Source of the DNA: Meridianimarinicoccus roseus | Lineage (GTDB): Bacteria > Pseudomonadota > Alphaproteobacteria > Rhodobacterales > Rhodobacteraceae | Direction of reading: 5' to 3' | DNA: 38,446 nucleotides | Assembly: GCF_003172915.1 (NCBI RefSeq) | Contig: NZ_QGKU01000016.1 | Coordinates: forward strand, 1 to 38,446 | In this document: positions 2,986 through 16,243 of the stretch, one piece after another | How the letters are laid out: the number at the start of each line of letters is the position of its first letter | Position numbering within the stretch: position 1 is the stretch's first letter | Translations under genes and position numbers: made by a program | The notes under the pieces: model-generated | Told to the model about the DNA's origin: nothing | The model's database searches: none | Seen by the model: the letters and a program-made list of their open reading frames with translations, nothing else

Positions 2986-3912
2986 CTACCTGTCCTGCCG
3001 GATATAGGCGCGGCCAAGAAAGCCGGGCTCCTGCTGCCGTGTGCGCGCGCGGCGGGACGCGGCGACCAGCACTGCGATGGTCAGCACGTAAGGCATCATA
3101 GCCAGCACATAAATCGGCACGTCGAGGCCAAGCGCCTGCAGCCGGGGAATGAGCGCTTGCGCCCCGCCGAAAAGCGCGGCGCCCGCGATGGCCCGCAGTG
3201 GCGACCATTGGACGAACACGACCAGCGCGAGCGCGATCCAGCCGCGTCCGGCGACCATACCCTCGGTCCAGATCTGCGCGCTACCTAGAGCGAGATAGCC
3301 CCCCGCAAGGCCGATAAGTGTGCTCCCTGCAACCAGCGCAACGCATTGCACCGCCTGTACGTCGACGCCCGCGCTGTCGGCGGTCGCCGGATCCTCCCCT
3401 GTTGCCCGCAGCGCAAGGCCGGTTCTGGTGCGATGTAGCATCCAGGCCAGCAACGCAGCTGCGGCGAGTGCGAGGTAGACCACCGCATCCTGCTGAAACA
3501 GCATTCGACCAACGAGTGGCCATTCCTTCAGCGGCCCGGGAAACGGAAGGTCCGCAAGACCCCGGAACGGCCTGTGCGCGAAATCCCGCCCCAGCACCAT
3601 CGACGTGCCAAGACCGATCGCCACGAGCGCCAGCCCTGCAGGGATCTGCGCTGCGCGGAACACAACGACCGCGATAATATAGGGCAGGGTGATGGCGACC
3701 GCGGCACCAGCCGCCAGTACCAGGGACAGGCCCGGTGCCAAACCCGAAAGGCAGGCCGCGGCGCCGGTCATGGCTGCAACCGCCATGACGCCTTCGACCC
3801 CGAGGTTAAGAACCCCTGCGCGCTCGCACAGCAGCAGGCCCAGCGACGCCAACAGAAGCGGGGTCATGAACCCGGGCAGGCTGCCTAGCCACGCGGTCAG
3901 GAACACGATCAT
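2986..3912 (-). CDS. BMP-type ABC importer permease (second permease)
   Basis: This 308-residue multi-pass membrane protein is of the BPD_transp_2 type that pairs with basic-membrane-protein (BMP) binding proteins, like the nucleoside importer permease NupC. It shows the family stretch ERAGVLNLGVEGVM (about 28-41) and the RATGEDPATADSAGVDV cytoplasmic coupling region. The start is the ATG at 3912, whose ATGA overlaps the stop codon of the preceding permease (3909-3911), so the two are translationally coupled. An upstream in-frame extension would run into the partner gene. It is the last gene of the importer operon. Confidence 0.88.
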   Translation of the reverse strand: MIVFLTAWLGSLPGFMTPLLLASLGLLLCERAGVLNLGVEGVMAVAAMTGAAACLSGLAPGLSLVLAAGAAVAITLPYIIAVVVFRAAQIPAGLALVAIGLGTSMVLGRDFAHRPFRGLADLPFPGPLKEWPLVGRMLFQQDAVVYLALAAAALLAWMLHRTRTGLALRATGEDPATADSAGVDVQAVQCVALVAGSTLIGLAGGYLALGSAQIWTEGMVAGRGWIALALVVFVQWSPLRAIAGAALFGGAQALIPRLQALGLDVPIYVLAMMPYVLTIAVLVAASRRARTRQQEPGFLGRAYIRQDR

Positions 3913-4973
3913 GGCGCAACCCTTCCCGCCAGCGCGATCCGGTAGGTGGTGGCGAACTGGCAAGTCACGAGGCACATCAGGAAGATGCCCTGGATCACCA
4001 GAACGATCCCCTCGGAAACGCCGTAGAACACTTTCAGCGACGCGCCTGCGCCGCTCAGACCGGCCATGAAAAGGCTGGCCACCGGGATAAGCAGTGGGTC
4101 GTTTCGGGCCAACGCCGCAATTACGATGCCGTTGAATGTCATCGACATGCCGACTGCCTGTGACAACCGGAACTCTGTGCCGGTCACGATCACACTGCCG
4201 GCAAGGCCCGCCGCGGCGCCACCGAGCAGGATTGAGATCAGCAGTAACCTTCCCGTATCGTATCCCAGTGCCCGAGCCGCACGCGGATTGTCACCGGCGA
4301 AGCGCGCCGCGAAGCCGAACCGCAGGCGGTGGATCATCAGGGCTGCGCTCAGCAGCGCTAGCACGGCGATGGGCAGGCCTGCATTGACATCGCCGAATCC
4401 GAACCGCGGAAGGCGCTCGGCCGCGTCGAAGATCGGTGAGGTTGGAAAATTGTGCGCCGGGTCGCCCATTGGTCCGAACAGAAGATGCTGAAGCAGCAGG
4501 AACGCGATGTTCGACATCAAAAGTGTCACGATCACCTCGCTTACGCCCGCTCGGATTTTCAGCAGCACGGGCAGCAGGATCCACGCCGCGCCGCCGATGC
4601 CCCCGGCCAGCAGCATCACCGGCAGCCGGAACGGACCTCCCAGATCGAGAAGGGCAACCGCGGTCGCGCAGATCGCGCCAAGCTGGACCTGTCCTTCGAT
4701 GCCGATGTTCCAGAATTTTAGCCGCAGGCACAGGGCCGCGGACAGGGCCACCAGCATCATAGGGGTGGCGATCGTCAATGTCCGGGCAAGCCCGGGGCCC
4801 GTCAGGAACACTTGCAGGACCAGCTCGTCGAACAGTGCCCCGGTCGGCACACCAGCCATGAGGAGAATCGCGACCGAAAGCGCCATCGCCAGAAGGATCG
4901 CGCCGGTGAAGGCGGCGGCCTGAAGCCCGGCCGAAACGCGGTCGCGCCGTTCGAGGGATACGCGTTCAAGCAT
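3909..4973 (-). CDS. BMP-type ABC importer permease (first permease)
   Basis: This 354-residue inner-membrane permease forms the transport channel with the gene immediately downstream. The KFWNIGIEGQVQLGA stretch (about 86-100) is the hallmark of NupB/RbsC-like permeases of the BMP importers. GDNPRAARALGYDTGRL (about 228-244) is the cytoplasmic coupling loop for the ATPase. The ATG at 4973 overlaps the ATPase stop codon (4966-4968) by 8 nt, and its own stop overlaps the next start. An uncharged N-terminal tail is followed by a first hydrophobic segment at about 20-42. Confidence 0.88.
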   Translation of the reverse strand: MLERVSLERRDRVSAGLQAAAFTGAILLAMALSVAILLMAGVPTGALFDELVLQVFLTGPGLARTLTIATPMMLVALSAALCLRLKFWNIGIEGQVQLGAICATAVALLDLGGPFRLPVMLLAGGIGGAAWILLPVLLKIRAGVSEVIVTLLMSNIAFLLLQHLLFGPMGDPAHNFPTSPIFDAAERLPRFGFGDVNAGLPIAVLALLSAALMIHRLRFGFAARFAGDNPRAARALGYDTGRLLLISILLGGAAAGLAGSVIVTGTEFRLSQAVGMSMTFNGIVIAALARNDPLLIPVASLFMAGLSGAGASLKVFYGVSEGIVLVIQGIFLMCLVTCQFATTYRIALAGRVAP

Positions 4974-8865: not shown

Positions 8866-9831
8866 TCAGCCTGTTGCCACCGCATCCGTCGCAAACAGCG
8901 GCCCGATCCCAAGGGGCGTTATGCCCGCGCTATCGCCGCGCAAGAGGAACAGGGCGTCGAGCCCGGTTTGTGTTGCAAGCGCCGCGCCCCTTTCCGGGCC
9001 GAGCACCATGAGCGCCGTCGCCCAGGCATCGGCTTCGGCACAGGTGCGGGCCACGACGGTGACGGAGGCCGGCGACGCGATCAGCGGCGCGCCCCGCCTC
9101 GGGTCCATCGTGTGCGACAGGCGGCGCCCCTGCACCTCGACCCAGTGACGGTAGTCGCCGGAGGTCGCGACGGCGGCATCCTGAAGCGCGAGGATCGAAT
9201 GCGGCGTCCGGCGCTTGGCGTCCGGCGCCTCGACCGCGATGGTCCAGGCTTCGCCGTCCGGCCGGAGGCCCAATGCACGCATCTCGCCATCGATCCCGAC
9301 GAGTCCATCTGAAATCCCATGATGGCGCAGGGTCTCGGCGAGCCGGTCCACGCCATAGCCTTTGGCGATGCCGTTGAGGTCGAGTTTCAGGGCTGCGGCC
9401 TTGCGCACGTGATCGCCGTCGAACTCCAGAATTTCATGCGCCGGGCGGCGCGAGGCGGCCATCGCGGTGCGGATGCCATCCGGCGCGGCGTCCCCGGGCC
9501 CGAAGCCCCAGGCCGTCACCGCGTCGCCCATGCCAATGTCGAACGCCCCGCCCGAGGCGCGCCCGATCTCGAGGCCGAGGCGCAGGACCGCAGCCAGTTG
9601 CGCGGGCACCGCCACCCATTCTCCCAGCGGCGCCGCGTTGAGCCGCATCAGGTCACTGTCCGGCTTCCAGGTCGACATCTGCCCGTCCACCTCGTCCACG
9701 GCCGCCTGCAGCGCCGCGCGGATCGGGGCCGGGTCGAAGTCCGGCTCCGCGAAGAACGTGGCCTGCCAGCGCGTGCCCATGGTCGGGCCGTTCAGGGCGA
9801 CCTTCACCCATTCAGTAGACATCTTCGACAT
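8866..9831 (-). CDS. apbE: FAD:protein FMN transferase (ApbE), without export signal
   Basis: This 321-residue ApbE enzyme covalently attaches FMN from FAD to a Ser/Thr of target proteins. Visible family features are MGTRW near residue 18, LDLNGIAKGYGVD (about 160), the ATSGDYRHW stretch with SHTMDPRRG, and the metal-site region ADAWATALMVLG. The ATG at 9831 has GGAGG about 6 nt upstream, and an in-frame stop at 9847-9849 rules out a longer protein. The enzyme therefore has no signal peptide or lipobox, unlike the usual periplasmic ApbE lipoproteins. It overlaps the reductase gene by 20 nt. The nearest candidate acceptor is the DUF2271 protein two genes upstream. Confidence 0.9.
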   Translation of the reverse strand: MSKMSTEWVKVALNGPTMGTRWQATFFAEPDFDPAPIRAALQAAVDEVDGQMSTWKPDSDLMRLNAAPLGEWVAVPAQLAAVLRLGLEIGRASGGAFDIGMGDAVTAWGFGPGDAAPDGIRTAMAASRRPAHEILEFDGDHVRKAAALKLDLNGIAKGYGVDRLAETLRHHGISDGLVGIDGEMRALGLRPDGEAWTIAVEAPDAKRRTPHSILALQDAAVATSGDYRHWVEVQGRRLSHTMDPRRGAPLIASPASVTVVARTCAEADAWATALMVLGPERGAALATQTGLDALFLLRGDSAGITPLGIGPLFATDAVATG

Positions 9832-12016
9832 ACCGCCCCTCCGCCTTCAGAAGCGCTGGCGTCAGCCCGGCCGGTGCGAGGATCTCGGCCAGCGCATCGG
9901 CCACGCCGGCGGCCATGTCGCGCCCGCCACAGACCATCACGCGCGCCCCGTTGCGAATAAGGTCTGCGACCTGGGCGGCCTCGCCCCGCAGCGCGTCTTG
10001 CACGTAGTGCGGACGCGCCCCGCGCGAGACGGCCGTGACCAGCTGGGTCAGACGCCCCTCGTCCTGCCAGCCGGGGATTTCCTCGCCGTAGAAGAAATCG
10101 CTGCCCGGATGCCGCATGCCGAAGAACAGATGGATTGGCCTGCGACGCGCGTTGCCGCGAATGAAGCCCGCAAGCGGTCCGATGCCGGTCCCCGCGCCGA
10201 TCAGGATCAGTGGTGCCTTGCCGCGACCGACGCGGAAGCCGGGGTTGCGGCGGAGGAAGGCGGCCACCGTGTCGCCAGGCTGCAGCGCCGTGAGCTGCCC
10301 CGAACAGAGTCCGCCGGGGTGCTTCTTGACCACGATCTCGACGAAGCCGTCGCGGCGTCCGGAGGCGAGCGAATAAAGCCGCGGGACGGCGCCCCCTTCG
10401 GGCAGAATGCCGATCAGGTCGCCCGCCTGAAACCGGGCGAACCCGCACCCGAGCAGCCGTTGCCAGAGCGAGGCGCGCGGAAGCGCGAAGCGGAGGATGG
10501 CGGTCGGGGCCTGCACCTCGGCGCCGTAGTCGCGTCGCGAGACGACGGTCAGCGTGGTCGCTTGCGGCTGGACCGGCTGATGCGAAAGTTCGAGGTCGAT
10601 CCCGAGAGCGTCGCCGAGTGCGCGGCCCCAGCGCGCAAAATCCTGCGGTGATTGGCGGTCGATCGTGCCCTGCGGCAGAAGTTCGGGCCAACCCCTCGCC
10701 TGCGCCGCCGCCGCGACGGACTTGGCGAAGGCGCAATAGGCCGGAAAGCTGCGGTCACCAAAGCCGAGTACGGCAAGAGGAATGTCGGGCGCGCGGCTCG
10801 GGGTGTTCAGCCGGTCGAGGAAGCCCTTCGCCGTAGCGGGGGCAGCCCCGTCGCCATAGGTCGCAGCGAGCAGGATAATCCGCTCGGCACGGGCATAACG
10901 CTGTGGCGCAAAGCCCGACATCGGTCCGACATGGACACTCTGCCCGGCTTGGGTCAGTGCGGCGTGAAGCGTCGCGGCAAAGCCCCAGGTGCTGCCACCC
11001 TCACTGCCCACGAGCAGGATCGTCTCGGCGCGGCCTGCGGGCTGATTGCCCCGGATTCGCGGCCGACCGCGCCGCCCGGCGAGCCAGACCAGCACGCCGG
11101 TCGCGCCCATCGCGGGCACGCCGAGCGCCATCAGCCCGAGAACGAGTCCCAGCGTCGCCGCACCCTGTCCGGTGTGCAGCATGTAGATCGTTTCCGAGAC
11201 GCGCTCCCAACCTGTAAGGTCGGCCCAGGCTAGGAGGGCTCCGTCGCCCTGATCGAGATATCCGGTGCCCCGGTCGGTCTTGAGCGTGAACATGTCTGTC
11301 GCGTCGCCGGGATAGGGAAAGCTCAGCTCGCGCAACTCGGCGACGGGCGTCTGCCGAAGCGTGGGCATCCGGCCCGGCGCGAACCCGGTCTCTCCACTGG
11401 CTTCAGTGGCGGCCGGCAGGATACCCCCGTCCGGCAGGAGATCGAAGGTCGACGCCGTCATCCAGAGGGCTGTCGTGGACGACAGCACGAGGCCAATGAC
11501 AGCGATCCGGGCGATCTCGACGTGCAGCCTGCCCGCGAGCGGACCGCGCAAGTGCGCGAACCAGTGTCGCCAGCCGCCCGCGCGCCGCGCGACCAGCGCC
11601 GCGCCGGAAAGCGAGAGGATCAGCATGGCGGCAGCCCCGGCGGCCATGGCGATGCGCCCGCCGTCCCCGAGGAACAGCGAACGGTGCAGGTTCGTAAGCC
11701 AGCGCTGCGTCTGGTTCGGGTCGGCCGAGGCCACGCCCTCACCCGTCGCAGGGTCGATCACGGCGGCACCTGGCGCGCCCTGATCGAACCAGTAGGCGGT
11801 GATGCGACCCGAAGGTGCGCGCCGGATCTGCTCGACGCCCGGATAGTTGGCCTGGATGCGGTTCGCGAGGGCGGCGACGGTCAGCGTTTGATCTGACTGC
11901 GGCGCGGCGATGCGCTCGGCCACGGGAAAGACCGACAGCGCCGCGCCGCTGAGGCTCAGGACGGTGACGAGCGCGAGGGCCAGAAGACCCGGCCAGCGAT
12001 GGAGTGCACGGATCAT
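9812..12016 (-). CDS. PepSY membrane / flavodoxin / FAD-NAD(P)H reductase fusion
   Basis: This 734-residue inner-membrane reductase has PepSY-associated transmembrane segments at about 10-32, 122-144, 168-190 and 285-312, with periplasmic PepSY-like loops between. A cytoplasmic flavodoxin-like domain follows at 332-475 (FMN loop GSEGGSTWGFA). It ends in a sulfite reductase/CPR-type FAD-NADPH module at 490-734: RLYSLAS at 546, GGLCSGQL at 568, LIGAGTGIGP at 605 and an aromatic C-terminus EDVY. It should carry electrons from NADPH across the membrane to a periplasmic acceptor. The ATG at 12016 follows a GAGGAG site and lies 12 nt past the DUF2271 stop; a GTG at 12031 is an alternative. The 3' end overlaps apbE. 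Confidence 0.88.
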   Translation of the reverse strand: MIRALHRWPGLLALALVTVLSLSGAALSVFPVAERIAAPQSDQTLTVAALANRIQANYPGVEQIRRAPSGRITAYWFDQGAPGAAVIDPATGEGVASADPNQTQRWLTNLHRSLFLGDGGRIAMAAGAAAMLILSLSGAALVARRAGGWRHWFAHLRGPLAGRLHVEIARIAVIGLVLSSTTALWMTASTFDLLPDGGILPAATEASGETGFAPGRMPTLRQTPVAELRELSFPYPGDATDMFTLKTDRGTGYLDQGDGALLAWADLTGWERVSETIYMLHTGQGAATLGLVLGLMALGVPAMGATGVLVWLAGRRGRPRIRGNQPAGRAETILLVGSEGGSTWGFAATLHAALTQAGQSVHVGPMSGFAPQRYARAERIILLAATYGDGAAPATAKGFLDRLNTPSRAPDIPLAVLGFGDRSFPAYCAFAKSVAAAAQARGWPELLPQGTIDRQSPQDFARWGRALGDALGIDLELSHQPVQPQATTLTVVSRRDYGAEVQAPTAILRFALPRASLWQRLLGCGFARFQAGDLIGILPEGGAVPRLYSLASGRRDGFVEIVVKKHPGGLCSGQLTALQPGDTVAAFLRRNPGFRVGRGKAPLILIGAGTGIGPLAGFIRGNARRRPIHLFFGMRHPGSDFFYGEEIPGWQDEGRLTQLVTAVSRGARPHYVQDALRGEAAQVADLIRNGARVMVCGGRDMAAGVADALAEILAPAGLTPALLKAEGRYVEDVY

Positions 12017-12027
12017 GGCCCTGCTCC

Positions 12028-12498
12028 TCACATGTCGTAGGCGAAGCTGGCGACGTAGCGGCGCCCGCGCATTGGCGTGCCCGCGCCTGTCGTCGTGAGC
12101 GGGACGGCCACCTCGTTCGGGCTGTCGCGCATGTCTTCGACGGCCGCGTCGATGTGAAGGGTGTAACCTGCGTCGAAGAGCGCATCGGCTAGGTCGAGCG
12201 TGATCTCGAGCGTACGGCCCCCGCCGACGCTGGCGCCGGTAATGCCGTTCACCTGCGCGGTATCGCCGCCAGTGGCGCGGTACCAGTCGCTCAGATGCTC
12301 GTAGTACTTCGACTTGCCACCGGCCATCCAGAGACTGCCGACATAGGCGCCCGAGGTGTCGGTGACGTAAAGCGCGAGGTAGGCCCCGTCACCGCCGTAA
12401 TTGTTGAGCGTCGTGGTAAGCGTCACCGGCCGTGCCATGGCCAGGCCGGGAAGCGTCAGCGCCGTGGTCAGCGCGAGCGTTGCGAGGAGGGATTTCAT
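12028..12498 (-). CDS. Exported DUF2271 protein, candidate FMN carrier
   Basis: This 156-residue protein has a Sec signal peptide (about 1-22, cleavage after LAMA). The mature part matches the DUF2271 pattern with GGKSKYYEHLSDWYRATGG. VNGITGASVGGG contains TGAS at 87-90. That resembles the (S/T)GA(S/T) sequence ApbE uses for threonine flavinylation, with an Asp a few residues upstream (D79). Given apbE and a flavoprotein reductase in the same operon, a periplasmic FMN-carrying electron acceptor is a reasonable inference. The ATG at 12498 follows an AAGGA site, and the gene lies 37 nt after the Asp-run gene. Confidence 0.8.
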   Translation of the reverse strand: MKSLLATLALTTALTLPGLAMARPVTLTTTLNNYGGDGAYLALYVTDTSGAYVGSLWMAGGKSKYYEHLSDWYRATGGDTAQVNGITGASVGGGRTLEITLDLADALFDAGYTLHIDAAVEDMRDSPNEVAVPLTTTGAGTPMRGRRYVASFAYDM

Positions 12499-12535
12499 AG
12501 GGTTGATCCTTGTTCTGAGAGGGCTTCGGAGAGGC

Positions 12536-12901
12536 TCAGTTCTGCTTGACCTGCGGCGGAGCACCGTTCCCGAAGAGACCGTTCTGCGGAGGGGCGACCG
12601 TGCCGGCGGGCGCGGGATTGCGGGCGGCACCACGGCAATCGTCGTCATCATCATCATCATCATCGTCGCAGTCATCATCGTCGTCGTCGTGACCGCGACG
12701 CGAGCCGTCCCGCCAGCGGTCGTCATCGTCGTCGTCATCGTCACTTGCGAGAACGAGCGGCATGGCTTGCGAGGCGTCATCGAAGAGCGCGGCAATGGGT
12801 CGAAGGACGTCGGACGGGGCTTGCATCGCACTCCAGGCGGGGACGCCGATCGCCGCGGTCAACGCCGTTGTCGCTGCGAGAAGTGTCAGGGTCTTTTTCA
12901 T
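12536..12901 (-). CDS. Secreted poly-aspartate protein
   Basis: This 121-residue protein has a clear signal peptide (MKKTLTLLAATTALTAAIGV, cleavage near residue 25). Its central segment is dominated by aspartate runs: 8 at 54-61, 6 at 72-77 and 10 at 79-88, with Cys at 78 and 89 bracketing the longest run. The tail is Pro/Gly/Asn-rich. No family is recognised. The acidic runs suggest binding of Ca2+, Fe or another cation in the periplasm. The GAC/GAT runs form a trinucleotide microsatellite in DNA. The ATG has AAGGAG upstream, and the gene is preceded by the tandem-repeat operator shared with the response-regulator gene. Confidence 0.8.
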   Translation of the reverse strand: MKKTLTLLAATTALTAAIGVPAWSAMQAPSDVLRPIAALFDDASQAMPLVLASDDDDDDDDRWRDGSRRGHDDDDDDCDDDDDDDDDDCRGAARNPAPAGTVAPPQNGLFGNGAPPQVKQN

Positions 12902-12945
12902 GGCAGGGTCTCCTTTCGTCTGCTGAGGGCAATCTGGAGACCCGA

Positions 12946-12995
12946 CCTGAGGCCTTCCTGACGCGCCCGCGATTCCCGCTTCAGCTTGCCGTCAG
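12946..12995 (-). promoter_or_regulatory. Four-half-site operator upstream of the poly-Asp gene
   Basis: Reading toward the gene: CTGACG (12995-12990), CTGAAG (12984-12979), GTCAGG (12962-12957) and CTCAGG (12951-12946). Each pair is offset by exactly 11 bp, the two pairs point in opposite directions, and 16 nt separate them. The last half-site ends 44 nt before the ATG at 12901. The outer arms also form a 10-bp inverted repeat (12954-12963 with 12990-12999). The same arrangement precedes the response-regulator gene. An 11-bp tandem offset is the usual geometry for OmpR-family regulators. Confidence 0.7.
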
Positions 12996-13010
12996 GAAGA
13001 GAGCGGCTTC

Positions 13011-13045
13011 CGAAAGAAAAAGGCCCCGCCCGTGAGGGCGAGGCC
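13011..13045 (-). terminator. Rho-independent terminator after the cytochrome b561 gene
   Basis: On the minus strand GGCCTCGCCC-TCAC-GGGCGGGGCC (13045-13022) forms a near-perfect 10-bp hairpin with a 4-nt loop. It is followed directly by a T-rich run (TTTTTCTTTC, 13021-13012). It lies 43 nt past the cytochrome stop codon and just before the poly-Asp operator, so the PepSY/cytochrome transcript and the poly-Asp/apbE transcript are separate units. Confidence 0.85.
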
Positions 13046-13087
13046 GAGTAGGGCCGAAGGGACGGTCGGCCTTGGGTATGAGTGCGA

Positions 13088-13759
13088 TCAGGCGATGTCG
13101 CCAGGACCGGGAGCGCGCTTCTCGCCAGTCACCATGGCACGCGCGAGGTTCTCGTGGTGGCGGAAGGAGGCCAGAACGACCCCCGCAACATGCAGAGCGG
13201 CCAACAGCAGCATCAGGTTGGCGAGCGTCTCGTGAACCTCTTTCAGCTGATCTTCGCCCCGGCCGCCTTCAGCATGTTCGTATTCGCCGCCATCGTCGTC
13301 TGCCCAGGCGGGTGCCACAATCTGCGGCATGGCAGGCAGCATCGCCAGACGCGACTCGTCCTCCATCAGCCAGCCGGTGAAGGCCGTGCCCGAAAGCGTA
13401 ACCAGCAACGCCACGATCATCGCCGCGCCCGCCGGGTTGTGGCCCATGTAGCGCCGCTCACGCCGCCGGGTCATGTCCCCGAGATAGGCAAGCGTCTCGC
13501 CGGGGCCTCTCAGGAACTGGGCGAAGCGCGCGTAGCGGCTGCCGACGAGGCCCCAGAGCAGGCGGAAGGCCACCAGACCGGCGACGACATAGCCCGCGAC
13601 CTCATGAACTGTGTCCAGCTCTTCCGCCGAGAGCCATGCCACCGCGAACGCCGCGACAAGCCCCCAGTGGAACACGCGGACCAGCGGATCCCAGACCTGG
13701 ACCTTGCTGCTCGGCCCCGTGTTTGTCTCTGGGGCCTTGTGTGAGATTGCGTCAGTCAT
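13088..13759 (-). CDS. Cytochrome b561-type membrane protein
   Basis: This 223-residue inner-membrane diheme cytochrome b has about four transmembrane segments (30-47, 54-72, 110-130, 177-196). Candidate heme ligands are H31 (VFHWG), H52 (TVHEVAGY), H107 (MGHNPAG), H176 (EVHETLANL) and H190. An acidic insert, DDDGGEYEHAEGGRGED, sits in the periplasmic loop before the last helix. It probably passes electrons between quinol and a periplasmic partner. The ATG at 13759 is placed 5 nt after AGGAGG; the ATG directly before it would be too close to the ribosome-binding site. The start overlaps the upstream PepSY gene by 8 nt. Confidence 0.88.
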   Translation of the reverse strand: MTDAISHKAPETNTGPSSKVQVWDPLVRVFHWGLVAAFAVAWLSAEELDTVHEVAGYVVAGLVAFRLLWGLVGSRYARFAQFLRGPGETLAYLGDMTRRRERRYMGHNPAGAAMIVALLVTLSGTAFTGWLMEDESRLAMLPAMPQIVAPAWADDDGGEYEHAEGGRGEDQLKEVHETLANLMLLLAALHVAGVVLASFRHHENLARAMVTGEKRAPGPGDIA

Positions 13760-14084
13760 CATAGCCTCCTTCGCGATCCCGGCCTCGATCCTGATCGTGC
13801 CGATCGTCGTCTTCCTCGTCCTCATACTCGAACTCGACCACCTCGAGCGTGGCCGGATGAACGGTCACCTCGATCCGGCGCCCCTCGGCATCCCGGCCGT
13901 CGATCTCGTAGCAGCCGTCGTCGATCTTGATCCGGCGCACCGTCCAGCCGTTCTCTTCGGCCAACCGGGTGACGGCATCACGCGGTTGCCAGTCAGCCAT
14001 CGGCACATAGCAGTCGTCATCCGCCAGCGCGACGCCGACCGGAAAGACCGCGAGAAAGCCGATAATTGTCAATGTCTTCTTCAT
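13752..14084 (-). CDS. Small exported PepSY-domain protein with acidic tail
   Basis: This 110-residue protein has a signal peptide at 1-21 (MKKTLTIIGFLAVFPVGVALA). A single PepSY-like fold follows at about 30-88 (VTRLAEENGWTVRRIKIDDGCYEIDGRDAEGRRIEV). Two cysteines (25, 58) could form a disulfide. The tail beyond residue 86 is rich in D, E, R and H. PepSY proteins of this size are often periplasmic modulators of sensor kinases or redox partners. The ATG has a GAGGAG site upstream, and the gene is divergent from the response regulator, sharing a 144-nt intergenic region with the operator. It overlaps the cytochrome gene. Confidence 0.85.
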   Translation of the reverse strand: MKKTLTIIGFLAVFPVGVALADDDCYVPMADWQPRDAVTRLAEENGWTVRRIKIDDGCYEIDGRDAEGRRIEVTVHPATLEVVEFEYEDEEDDDRHDQDRGRDREGGYDD

Positions 14085-14135
14085 GGGCCAAACTCCTCGC
14101 CAAGGCCATCTTGACTCAATGCATGCACGGCGAAG

Positions 14136-14185
14136 CTGACGGCAGCCTGAAGGGTGATAGCCCGGCGCGTCAGCTTCGTGTCAGC
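14136..14185 (+). promoter_or_regulatory. Four-half-site operator between PepSY and response-regulator genes
   Basis: CTGACG (14136-14141), CTGAAG (14147-14152), GTCAGC (14169-14174) and GTCAGC (14180-14185) form two opposed tandem pairs. Each pair is offset by 11 bp, with 16 nt between pairs. The last half-site ends 43 nt before the response-regulator ATG. The arms also create an 11-bp perfect inverted repeat (14131-14141 with 14168-14178). The arrangement matches the poly-Asp operator in order, spacing and distance to the gene. It is probably the autoregulatory site of the response regulator, and it can also act on the divergent PepSY/cytochrome genes. Confidence 0.7.
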
Positions 14186-14228
14186 CAGACGCATCATGAA
14201 GGGTCATAGGAAAAGGACGGAGACGAGG

Positions 14229-14888
14229 ATGCGGATCCTGCTGATCGAGGACGATACGGTTCTGGGGGCTGCAGTGCGCGACCAGATCGCAGCGGATGGC
14301 CAGTCGGTAGATTGGGTGACGCGCCTCGATGCGGCCGGCGATGCGGTGAAATTCACGTCCTACGACCTGATCCTGCTCGACCTCATGCTGCCGGACGGTC
14401 GCGGGATCGGGTTCCTCAAGGGTCTCCGCGCGCGAGGAGAGGTTACCCCGGTCATCATCCTGACTGCGCTCGATCAGGTGTCCGACCGGATCGAGGGGTT
14501 GAACGCCGGCGCCGACGACTATCTCGTGAAGCCATTCGACCTTGCGGAACTGTCGGCGCGGATCGGGTCTGTCGCTCGACGCTACAGCGGCAACCCGAAC
14601 CCCATCGTGACCCACGGGCCACTTGAAATCGACCTTGCCGCGCGCAGCGTTCACCGGGACGGCAAACCGGTGCAACTGACCGCGCGGGAATGGGCACTGT
14701 TCGAAGCCTTCCTTGCACGCCCCGGGCAGCTTCTTTCGAAGGCGCAACTGGAGGAGAAGCTCTACGCCTTCGACGCCGAGGTGGAGAGCAACACCATCGA
14801 AGTCCATGTCAGTCGGCTGCGCAAGAAGCTGGGGAGTGCGGTCATCGAGACCGAGCGCGGCATGGGCTATCGGCTGGGTCGGCCATGA
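14229..14888 (+). CDS. OmpR-family response regulator (QseB/PmrA-like)
   Basis: This 219-residue regulator has an N-terminal receiver (1-115): acidic pocket E7-D8-D9, phospho-acceptor D51 (LILLDLMLPDG), and K in YLVKPF. The C-terminal winged helix (about 125-219) carries TAREWALFEAF and the recognition-helix region SNTIEVHVSRLRKKLG. I chose the ATG at 14229 because MRILLIEDD is the canonical receiver start and GGAG lies just upstream; the in-frame extension from 14154 runs through the operator. The stop overlaps the kinase start (ATGA). It probably binds the four-half-site elements described here. Confidence 0.93.
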   Translation: MRILLIEDDTVLGAAVRDQIAADGQSVDWVTRLDAAGDAVKFTSYDLILLDLMLPDGRGIGFLKGLRARGEVTPVIILTALDQVSDRIEGLNAGADDYLVKPFDLAELSARIGSVARRYSGNPNPIVTHGPLEIDLAARSVHRDGKPVQLTAREWALFEAFLARPGQLLSKAQLEEKLYAFDAEVESNTIEVHVSRLRKKLGSAVIETERGMGYRLGRP

Positions 14889-16243
14889 GGTGGCCGGCCA
14901 GCCTTCAGGCGCGGCTTGGCCTGTCGCTCGGGGTCGGGCTGACGGTGCTATGGCTGCTGGCAGCGACGGTGACGGCCGTGATCGTCCGGGACGAGTTGGA
15001 CGAGGTCTTCGACAGCGCGCTGCGGGAAACGGCCGAGAGGATCCTGCCTCTGGCCGTGACCGATATCGTCGGCCGGGAAGATCAGGGGATCACGCAACGC
15101 CTCGCGCCTATCCGCGAACACAACGAATTCTTCACCTATCTTGTGCGGGATGCCGAAGGGCGCATCCTTTTGCAGTCGCACGCGGCTGACCCTGCGGTTT
15201 TTCCGCCGTGGGACGGACCCGGGTTCCGGCAGACCGCCACCCATCGGCTCTACAGCGACGCTGCGCTTCAGGACACGATCCGCATCACCGTCGCCGAGCC
15301 GCAGGCGCATCGCATGTCGGTGGCCCGCGAAATCCAGATGGGCCTTGGCCTGCCACTTCTGGTCGTCCTGCCCGTCGCGCTGGCCGCTATCGTGCTCGCC
15401 GTTCGCTTCAGCCTCCATCCGCTGCGCCGGTTCCGCGCTCGGTTGGAGGCGCGCGGCGCGCGGGATCTGTCGGCGGTTCCTGCAAGCGATCTGCCGACGG
15501 AGATCGGTCCGCTGGCGGCGACGCTGAACGGCCTACTGGCCCGGCTGCGCGACGCGTTCGAGGCCGAGCGCAGCTTTGCCGCGAACGCGGCCCACGAGTT
15601 GAGAACGCCGCTTGCCGGCGCCATCGCGCAGGCGCAGCGCCTGAGGGCTGAGACCAGCGACCCTGCAACTGACGCGCGGGCCGCGGAGATCGAGGCGACA
15701 CTCAAGCGCCTGACCCGACTATCCGAACGCCTCATGCAGCTCGCGCGGGCCGAAGGCGGACGGCTGCGGATGGACCGAAGCGCGGACCTGAAGGCGATTG
15801 CCCGCGTCTTGGTGGACGATCTTGAACGCACCGGTGCGGAGGGCCGTATCGCGCTTGCGCTGCCAAGGACAGCCGTCATGTCCGATATCGACCCCGACGC
15901 CTTCGCCATCCTGTGCCGCAACCTCATGGAAAATGCGCTTCGTCACGGAGCTGAGAACACGACGGTCGACGTCACTTTGACCGCAGACGGGCTGCTTTCT
16001 GTCGCGAACGACGGCCCGGTCCTGCCACGCGACACTCTCGACCGCCTGACGGCACGCTTCGAACGGGCGAACGCAAGCACCGATGGCAGCGGGCTTGGCC
16101 TTGCCATCGTCGCGGCCATCGCGGAACGGATCGGGAGTTCGCTCGTTCTGAAATCGCCGCGACCTGGTGGATTTTCCGGTTTCGAAGCATCGCTCAGGTT
16201 GCCGACCGATGACCTCGGGTCCGGGGTTGGGGGCGACGCGTAG
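14885..16243 (+). CDS. Sensor histidine kinase partner of the OmpR-family regulator
   Basis: This 452-residue inner-membrane kinase has TM1 at about 12-34, a periplasmic sensor region at about 35-150 and TM2 at about 152-174. A HAMP-like linker follows, then the dimerisation/phospho-acceptor box FAANAAHELRTPLAG with H237. The catalytic domain has N-box NLMENALRHG and G-box DGSGLGLAIV. The ATG at 14885 overlaps the regulator stop. The organisation matches QseC/PmrB-type kinases that sense periplasmic cations or envelope stress. The periplasmic products of the divergent genes (PepSY protein, poly-Asp protein) are candidate signal modulators. Confidence 0.92.
   Translation: MRWPASLQARLGLSLGVGLTVLWLLAATVTAVIVRDELDEVFDSALRETAERILPLAVTDIVGREDQGITQRLAPIREHNEFFTYLVRDAEGRILLQSHAADPAVFPPWDGPGFRQTATHRLYSDAALQDTIRITVAEPQAHRMSVAREIQMGLGLPLLVVLPVALAAIVLAVRFSLHPLRRFRARLEARGARDLSAVPASDLPTEIGPLAATLNGLLARLRDAFEAERSFAANAAHELRTPLAGAIAQAQRLRAETSDPATDARAAEIEATLKRLTRLSERLMQLARAEGGRLRMDRSADLKAIARVLVDDLERTGAEGRIALALPRTAVMSDIDPDAFAILCRNLMENALRHGAENTTVDVTLTADGLLSVANDGPVLPRDTLDRLTARFERANASTDGSGLGLAIVAAIAERIGSSLVLKSPRPGGFSGFEASLRLPTDDLGSGVGGDA

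Follow-up and report, generated by a model that had tools for sequence, protein, structure and literature searches.

A predicted four-half-site operator shared by a QseB/PmrA-type response-regulator gene and a neighbouring flavin- and haem-based redox operon in the Rhodobacteraceae

The stretch of Meridianimarinicoccus roseus DNA analysed here (38,446 nucleotides; the window) carries a two-component system beside a set of redox genes, and two copies of one elaborate repeat precede genes of both. What binds these repeats, and do they place the whole block under a single control? Element 1, on the minus strand, reads CTGACG GCAAG CTGAAG N16 GTCAGG AAGGC CTCAGG from 12995 to 12946 and lies 44 nt from the ATG at 12901, whereas element 2, on the plus strand, reads CTGACG GCAGC CTGAAG N16 GTCAGC TTCGT GTCAGC from 14136 to 14185 and lies 43 nt from the ATG at 14229. 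This direct reading of the sequence agrees with the first-pass annotation in the order of the half-sites, the 11-bp offset within each pair, the 16-nt gap and the distance to the start codon. The core motif common to the two 49-bp predicted operators (12947..12995, minus strand; 14136..14184, plus strand) is CTGA-N7-CTGA-N19-TCAG-N7-TCAG. Two features had gone unmentioned in that annotation. Element 2 is also 51 nt from the start of a divergent gene for a small PepSY protein (14084, minus strand), and the cores of each element are nearly palindromic, so that the motif matches on both strands.

Such exact conservation of spacing had been judged unlikely to arise by chance, and both the host genome and a survey of the family bear this out. 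A three-half-site pattern with exact spacing matched the genome (4,294,927 bases) at elements 1 and 2 and nowhere else, and the same pattern read backwards gave no match in that genome. With the complete four-half-site pattern and up to three mismatches allowed, the two elements matched with none (one on the other strand) and only two further places were recovered, each with three mismatches, against a single match for the control. Elements 1 and 2 are therefore the sole sites with no more than two mismatches to the motif in the 4.29-Mb genome. The bare pair CTGAMG-N5-CTGAMG (up to two mismatches) was rejected as uninformative, with 14 occurrences in the window against 12.3 expected; since this half of the element is common by chance, the evidence lies in the full four-site geometry. 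We then searched 295 genomes of the family, one per genus, for CTGA-N7-CTGA-N8..30-TCAG-N7-TCAG. The pattern was present at 119 places in 72 genomes (reversed control, two places), and the central spacing was far from uniform: N19 accounted for 86 places, N20 for 13 and N9 for 14, with the remaining 20 spacings together contributing six. One of these six (N30, in G308) coincides in part with an N19 place and results from an additional half-site in tandem; a redox-operon element with such a third half-site, 11 bp beyond the outer one, was noted at L119:4602-4661. The N19/N20 form was detected in 58 of the 295 sampled genera, about a fifth of those sampled in the family.

The gene downstream from element 2 (14229..14888, plus strand) encodes a response regulator with a receiver and a winged-helix output domain (PF00072 and PF00486, both over their cut-offs), and is followed by a gene for a QseC/PmrB-like sensor histidine kinase (14885..16243, plus strand; profile matches). 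Domain models and matches to PDB entries place the regulator in the OmpR/PhoB family, as had been proposed, and more precisely in its QseB/PmrA branch. The regulator scored best with the PmrA model (204 bits, for an NCBIfam cut-off of 330) and second with that for QseB (195, for a cut-off of 345), and the best model for the kinase was QseC (177 bits, for an equivalog cut-off of 475). The likeness to QseBC thus extends to both proteins at scores far below the equivalog cut-offs, and the regulator is a relative of PmrA and QseB rather than either of them. We consider that the elements are operators of this neighbouring regulator, that the gene-proximal dimer activates transcription in place of a -35 box with the help of the opposed distal dimer, and that three operons are driven by the regulator, namely its own, that of PepSY and cytochrome b561, and that of the redox genes; we estimate the probability of this reading at about 0.86. 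A phosphorylated dimer would sit head to tail on each CTGA-N7-CTGA pair, with the two dimers facing each other.

If this is so, the element should be conserved before orthologues of the regulator and of the redox genes, as the first-pass annotation had anticipated. Across the 295 genomes, the N19/N20 element and a gene for a DUF2271 protein, a member of the redox operon, were both present in 53, the element alone in five, DUF2271 alone in 11 and neither in 226, an association with a p value of about 2e-41, uncorrected for kinship. We then took all 68 DUF2271 places in these genomes, chosen blind to the element; a regulator orthologue is linked to 54 of them, including that of the window. The element was present upstream from the regulator in 52 of these 54 loci, with perfect cores in 40 and one mismatch in 12, and 50 of the 54 have it (zero or one core mismatch) upstream from the redox operon, no more than 650 nt ahead of DUF2271. 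The two linked orthologues lacking a standard element are those of L091 (71% identical) and L097 (about 55%); these two loci, together with L089 and L123, also lack the element before the redox operon, L089 and L123 having it upstream from the regulator instead. In L091, two opposed pairs are visible upstream from the regulator orthologue (3511-3575), separated by a much wider gap (about 35 nt from core to core), and one of the cores reads CTTA. In a larger set of 62 regulator loci, 61 matched with no more than one mismatch and 1240 shuffled upstream regions never fell below three; this set includes loci picked for their element, a bias that the DUF2271-chosen count was made to avoid.

A similar result was obtained with 80 named loci collected through their DUF2271 protein, a second set in which many members are near-identical and which overlaps with the first by kinship. 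The element was recovered in 78 of these loci, both misses (L169 and L208) lying at contig ends. Among the 74 loci with a regulator-like gene, it was present before the regulator in 73 and before the redox operon in 74, the one exception (L171) having a regulator-like gene with 55% identity. The earlier prediction of one regulon for the whole block is thus well supported by conservation upstream from the regulator and the redox operon. The operon for PepSY and cytochrome b561, which diverges from the regulator gene, should belong to the regulon as well.

Element 2 would serve both divergent promoters. The small PepSY_2 protein with an acidic tail (PF13670; 13752..14084, minus strand) is encoded together with a membrane protein of the cytochrome b561 family (13088..13762, minus strand; domain match). 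The cytochrome b561 gene is separated from element 1 by a hairpin resembling a Rho-independent terminator (13022..13045, minus strand), identified by pattern match alone, with two such hairpins found for 0.8 expected; its position upstream from element 1 indicates that the redox genes are probably a unit of their own.

The association with DUF2271 might suggest that the element is simply a marker of DUF2271 genes. This was rejected: the element tracks the regulator gene, not DUF2271. Eleven of the 64 genomes with DUF2271 lack the strict N19/N20 element. Two of these (G012 and G199) have elements with one mismatch, G141 has the wide-gap variant, and the regulator of G314 has diverged, with no clear element beside it; G242 stops at a contig edge, and the DUF2271 match in G154 is below the Pfam cut-off. 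A further four (G018, G236, G278 and G302) have no linked regulator orthologue in the stretch examined, and in the last (G090) a broken regulator frame abuts DUF2271, leaving no intergenic region. The abutting frames (L090:2500-2900) point to a deletion or an assembly fault. Of the 14 DUF2271 places without a linked regulator, five have a perfect element, five lack the regulator and the element alike, and four could not be judged (L090, with its broken frame, L094, at a contig end, and L096 and L098, with DUF2271 matches too weak to be scored). All five genomes with a perfect element also have the regulator: elsewhere in the genome in G282 and G309, and on another contig in G114, G149 and G125, where the contig carrying the element ends nearby. 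In G127 and G212, each with two DUF2271 loci, the element is confined to the locus bearing the regulator. Five genomes have the element and no DUF2271, four of which (G117, G144, G182 and G246) have the regulator; none was found within 7 kb in the fifth (G161). Beyond the family, 18 genomes besides that of the window passed the DUF2271 cut-off in a class-wide sample of 385. The three loci with a regulator orthologue (78-79% identical) all carry elements, whereas none of the 14 without one had an element at up to two mismatches, these regulator-less loci being distant in their redox genes as well; L136 also had none.

These distributions bear on the possibility that a DNA-binding protein other than this regulator recognises the element. 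Two N19 places (L078 and L135), with no regulator found in the stretch examined, would be compatible with such a protein, yet the element follows the regulator orthologue in 52 of the 54 linked loci and in all three outside the family, and it is similar to the PmrA box in its half-sites and 11-bp repeat. A related operator is, moreover, found with a related regulator clade. We therefore regard recognition by a different protein as very improbable. The distances involved also disfavour looping between the two elements, a looped complex having been one of the two arrangements suggested earlier from the opposed pairs. Elements within a locus are separated by 401 to 4869 bp, some loci have a single element, the redox locus of G282 retains its elements although about 29.6 kb separate it from that of the regulator (35,686 and 65,297 on C6), and the regulator and redox loci of G309 are on different contigs. 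Elements far from the regulator gene or on other contigs fit a protein acting at a distance, and make looping unnecessary.

Comparison with PmrA is instructive for the mode of binding. The best PDB matches of the regulator (8jo2 and 4s04) are to PmrA/BasR, of the same branch of the OmpR/PhoB family. In the part of the study consulted (PMC3973317), the PmrA box is described as a pair of hexamers with 5 bp between them and head-to-tail binding, position 193 is in contact with a base, and both H193 and H195 of PmrA are singled out as likely determinants of specificity. Direct hexamer repeats with this separation are likewise found here, twice per element, and N188 and H193 of the recognition helix are shared with the M. 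roseus regulator. The two systems differ in that H195 of PmrA is replaced by S, the half-site is CTGA(A/C)G rather than CTTAAG, two opposed boxes stand at a fixed spacing in place of one, and the regulator lies below the PmrA cut-off, as reported above. Variation in the helix is accompanied by variation in the site. In all loci encoding Y or F at residue 193 (5/5), the majority of inner half-sites end in a base other than G, a pattern seen in none of the 57 H193 loci, in which single half-sites not ending in G do nonetheless occur. Similarly, H at residue 196 accompanies an outer CTGAAG half-site in 3/3 loci, whereas A is the majority base at position 5 of the outer half-sites in 2/59 loci with R196. 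We had considered this covariation as independent proof of recognition, and demoted it: residues 193 and 196 each correspond to one change on the tree, so the covariation agrees with binding by the regulator without proving it.

We investigated whether the elements stand in a fixed register with promoter features. An alignment of 84 elements was prepared, from which six elements without an assigned neighbour gene and identical repeats had been dropped beforehand; the core positions being fixed by selection, the free positions alone count. At 12 nt past the final TCAG, an A is found in 93% of the promoters preceding the regulator (n = 43), in 98% of those preceding the redox operon (n = 41) and in 95% of those on the opposite side (n = 41). 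This A, which we take to be A-11 of the -10 hexamer of sigma-70-type promoters, probably marks the -10 element. The predicted hexamers in the window are CATGAA for the regulator promoter (14195..14200, plus strand; A at 14196), CAGATT for the redox operon promoter (12931..12936, minus strand; A at 12935) and CATGCA for the divergent PepSY promoter (14120..14125, minus strand; A at 14124). CAGATT is the commonest hexamer at the redox -10 position (17/41). On this register, transcription would start near +23, placing the distal pair at about -71 to -57 and the proximal pair at about -37 to -23, where it would replace the -35 box and aid RNA polymerase directly. In class II activation, the site overlaps the -35 box and keeps a constant distance from a conserved -10; such an arrangement is found here relative to a predicted start. 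A consensus scan of 12850-14300 identified no promoter-like site with a -35 box, a weak test given that shuffled sequences yielded only 0.2.

The same register weighs on two other interpretations. The regulator might bind to repress rather than activate, autoregulatory operators being frequently repressive; in all three promoter classes, however, the proximal pair covers the -35 region at a constant distance from the -10, as would be anticipated for an activator-dependent promoter, and we consider repression improbable, the preference for activation being drawn from geometry. It could also be argued that the inverted repeats form an RNA hairpin or attenuator, as the cores are inverted repeats and longer complementarity is seen in element 2 of the window. 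Against this, matching of the arms outside the cores averages 32% for the redox elements (n = 41) and 52% for the regulator elements (n = 43), where chance alone would give 25%, and transcription is predicted to begin downstream from the element, making an RNA structure scarcely credible.

The preferred reading, in which the regulator activates from the proximal pair, leaves the function of the distal pair to be explained. Divergent elements carry a mirror T at -12 in 95% of cases; the corresponding base is G in 56% of the one-sided redox elements. The distal pair is retained there: in the 40 one-sided N19 redox elements, its free positions are almost invariant (C5 100%, A9 95%, A16 92%, G17 100%), those of the proximal pair being more variable (e.g. 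C44 50%, G42 60%, G34 92%), and overall the distal pair is the more conserved of the two outside the cores. A pair kept where the mirror -10 has gone is unlikely to serve only an opposite promoter; conserved before the redox operon with no promoter to serve, it probably binds a second dimer required by the first. A second dimer aiding the first would be the simplest reading of the distal pair, and a tetrameric arrangement on the element, as the first-pass annotation had envisaged, is plausible. Alternatively, the proximal pair alone might activate, the opposed pair being a relic of a two-way promoter copied to the redox operon. The regulator and the redox operon do share one two-way element in L062, L068, L087, L103 and L125, and two of these loci, L068 and L087, are deep branches of the midpoint-rooted tree, in favour of such an origin; a relic should nevertheless decay, and the distal pair of the 40 one-sided elements is better conserved than the proximal one. 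We judge a relic unlikely, albeit the most serious of the alternatives to two cooperating dimers.

The 14 N9 places define a sister operator, 10 bp shorter (39 bp). Close to each of the 12 examined (in 11 loci, L069-L077, L139 and L140) is the gene for a regulator that belongs to another clade (36-41% identical) and has V or L at residue 193. PepSY_2 matches were present in four and cytochrome b561 matches in three of these 11 loci, and a conserved A is found at +13 in 21 of 24 sides of the N9 operators. Such regulators might function exclusively as pairs of opposed dimers, bound to a rigid operator with a length in whole DNA turns (about 49 bp here and 39 bp in the sister form), the far dimer being needed at one-way promoters too and the length, in addition to the half-site sequence, helping to separate sister pathways. 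We advance this generalisation tentatively, as somewhat less probable than its converse. The N9 and N19 operators provide a clean test case for insulation between related response regulators.

The operon preceded by element 1 begins with a gene for a poly-Asp protein (12536..12901, minus strand), for which no Pfam family exceeded its cut-off. It continues, on the same strand, with the DUF2271 protein (12028..12501; domain match), the translation of which contains a TGAS stretch fitting the [S/T]GA[S/T] flavinylation motif in the part consulted of PMC8238504, a fusion of PepSY_TM, flavodoxin and FAD-NAD(P) reductase domains (9812..12031; profile matches) and ApbE, of the FAD:protein FMN transferase family (8866..9831; domain match). 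ApbE, PepSY_TM and DUF2271 with its motif are the components shared with PepSY-like flavinylation systems, as outlined in the consulted parts of PMC8238504 and PMC11334425, from which the M. roseus operon differs in the fusion of the flavodoxin reductase to PepSY_TM. DUF4198, included in this comparison, gave no match among the ten proteins scanned here. Electrons may pass from a reductant to the flavodoxin reductase and the haem protein, and on to a periplasmic flavoprotein, to judge from these analogies. The regulator would in that case drive a flavin- and haem-based trans-membrane electron-transfer operon, tying such a module to a dedicated sensor.

Regulation is not treated in the consulted parts of the two papers on flavinylation. 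A similar redox gene set in Caulobacter is iron- and Fur-responsive, according to the part seen of PMC3751524, whereas that of M. roseus is linked to a two-component system. A small PepSY protein (13752-14084) encoded beside a regulator and kinase recalls the DbfQRS-type modules, including BqsS and PA2658 of P. aeruginosa, and the example of DbfQ indicates that such proteins can control the kinase, as described in the available part of PMC12714742. In the present arrangement, by contrast, the PepSY gene is transcribed divergently from that of the regulator, has a cytochrome b561 gene as its partner and is linked to the electron-transfer operon. As to the signal, a metal or redox cue would be our guess. 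A literature search judged by titles and the beginnings of abstracts returned no description of this operator, which apparently represents a new design for an undescribed regulon within a known kind of system. For this two-component system, the analysis delimits an operator to the base, and predicts three promoters and a small regulon.

A further element was observed before a similar-looking protein in two genera (L106:4014-4062, ORF 4106-4708; L134:1094-1142, ORF 424-1035), and may correspond to a fourth unit of the regulon; one of the two proteins had a weak Hemerythrin match (E 0.003, below the cut-off) and the other had none. Finally, the C-terminal tail of the poly-Asp protein, ARNPAPAGTVAPPQNG, is common to proteins encoded at the same place in other loci (L137:4463-4837, L086:6353-6730 and L106:4888-5262). 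The bodies of these relatives match PepSY_2 or align with proteins that do, so that either a PepSY_2 or an Asp-rich body is found over the same tail, as if the two had been swapped.
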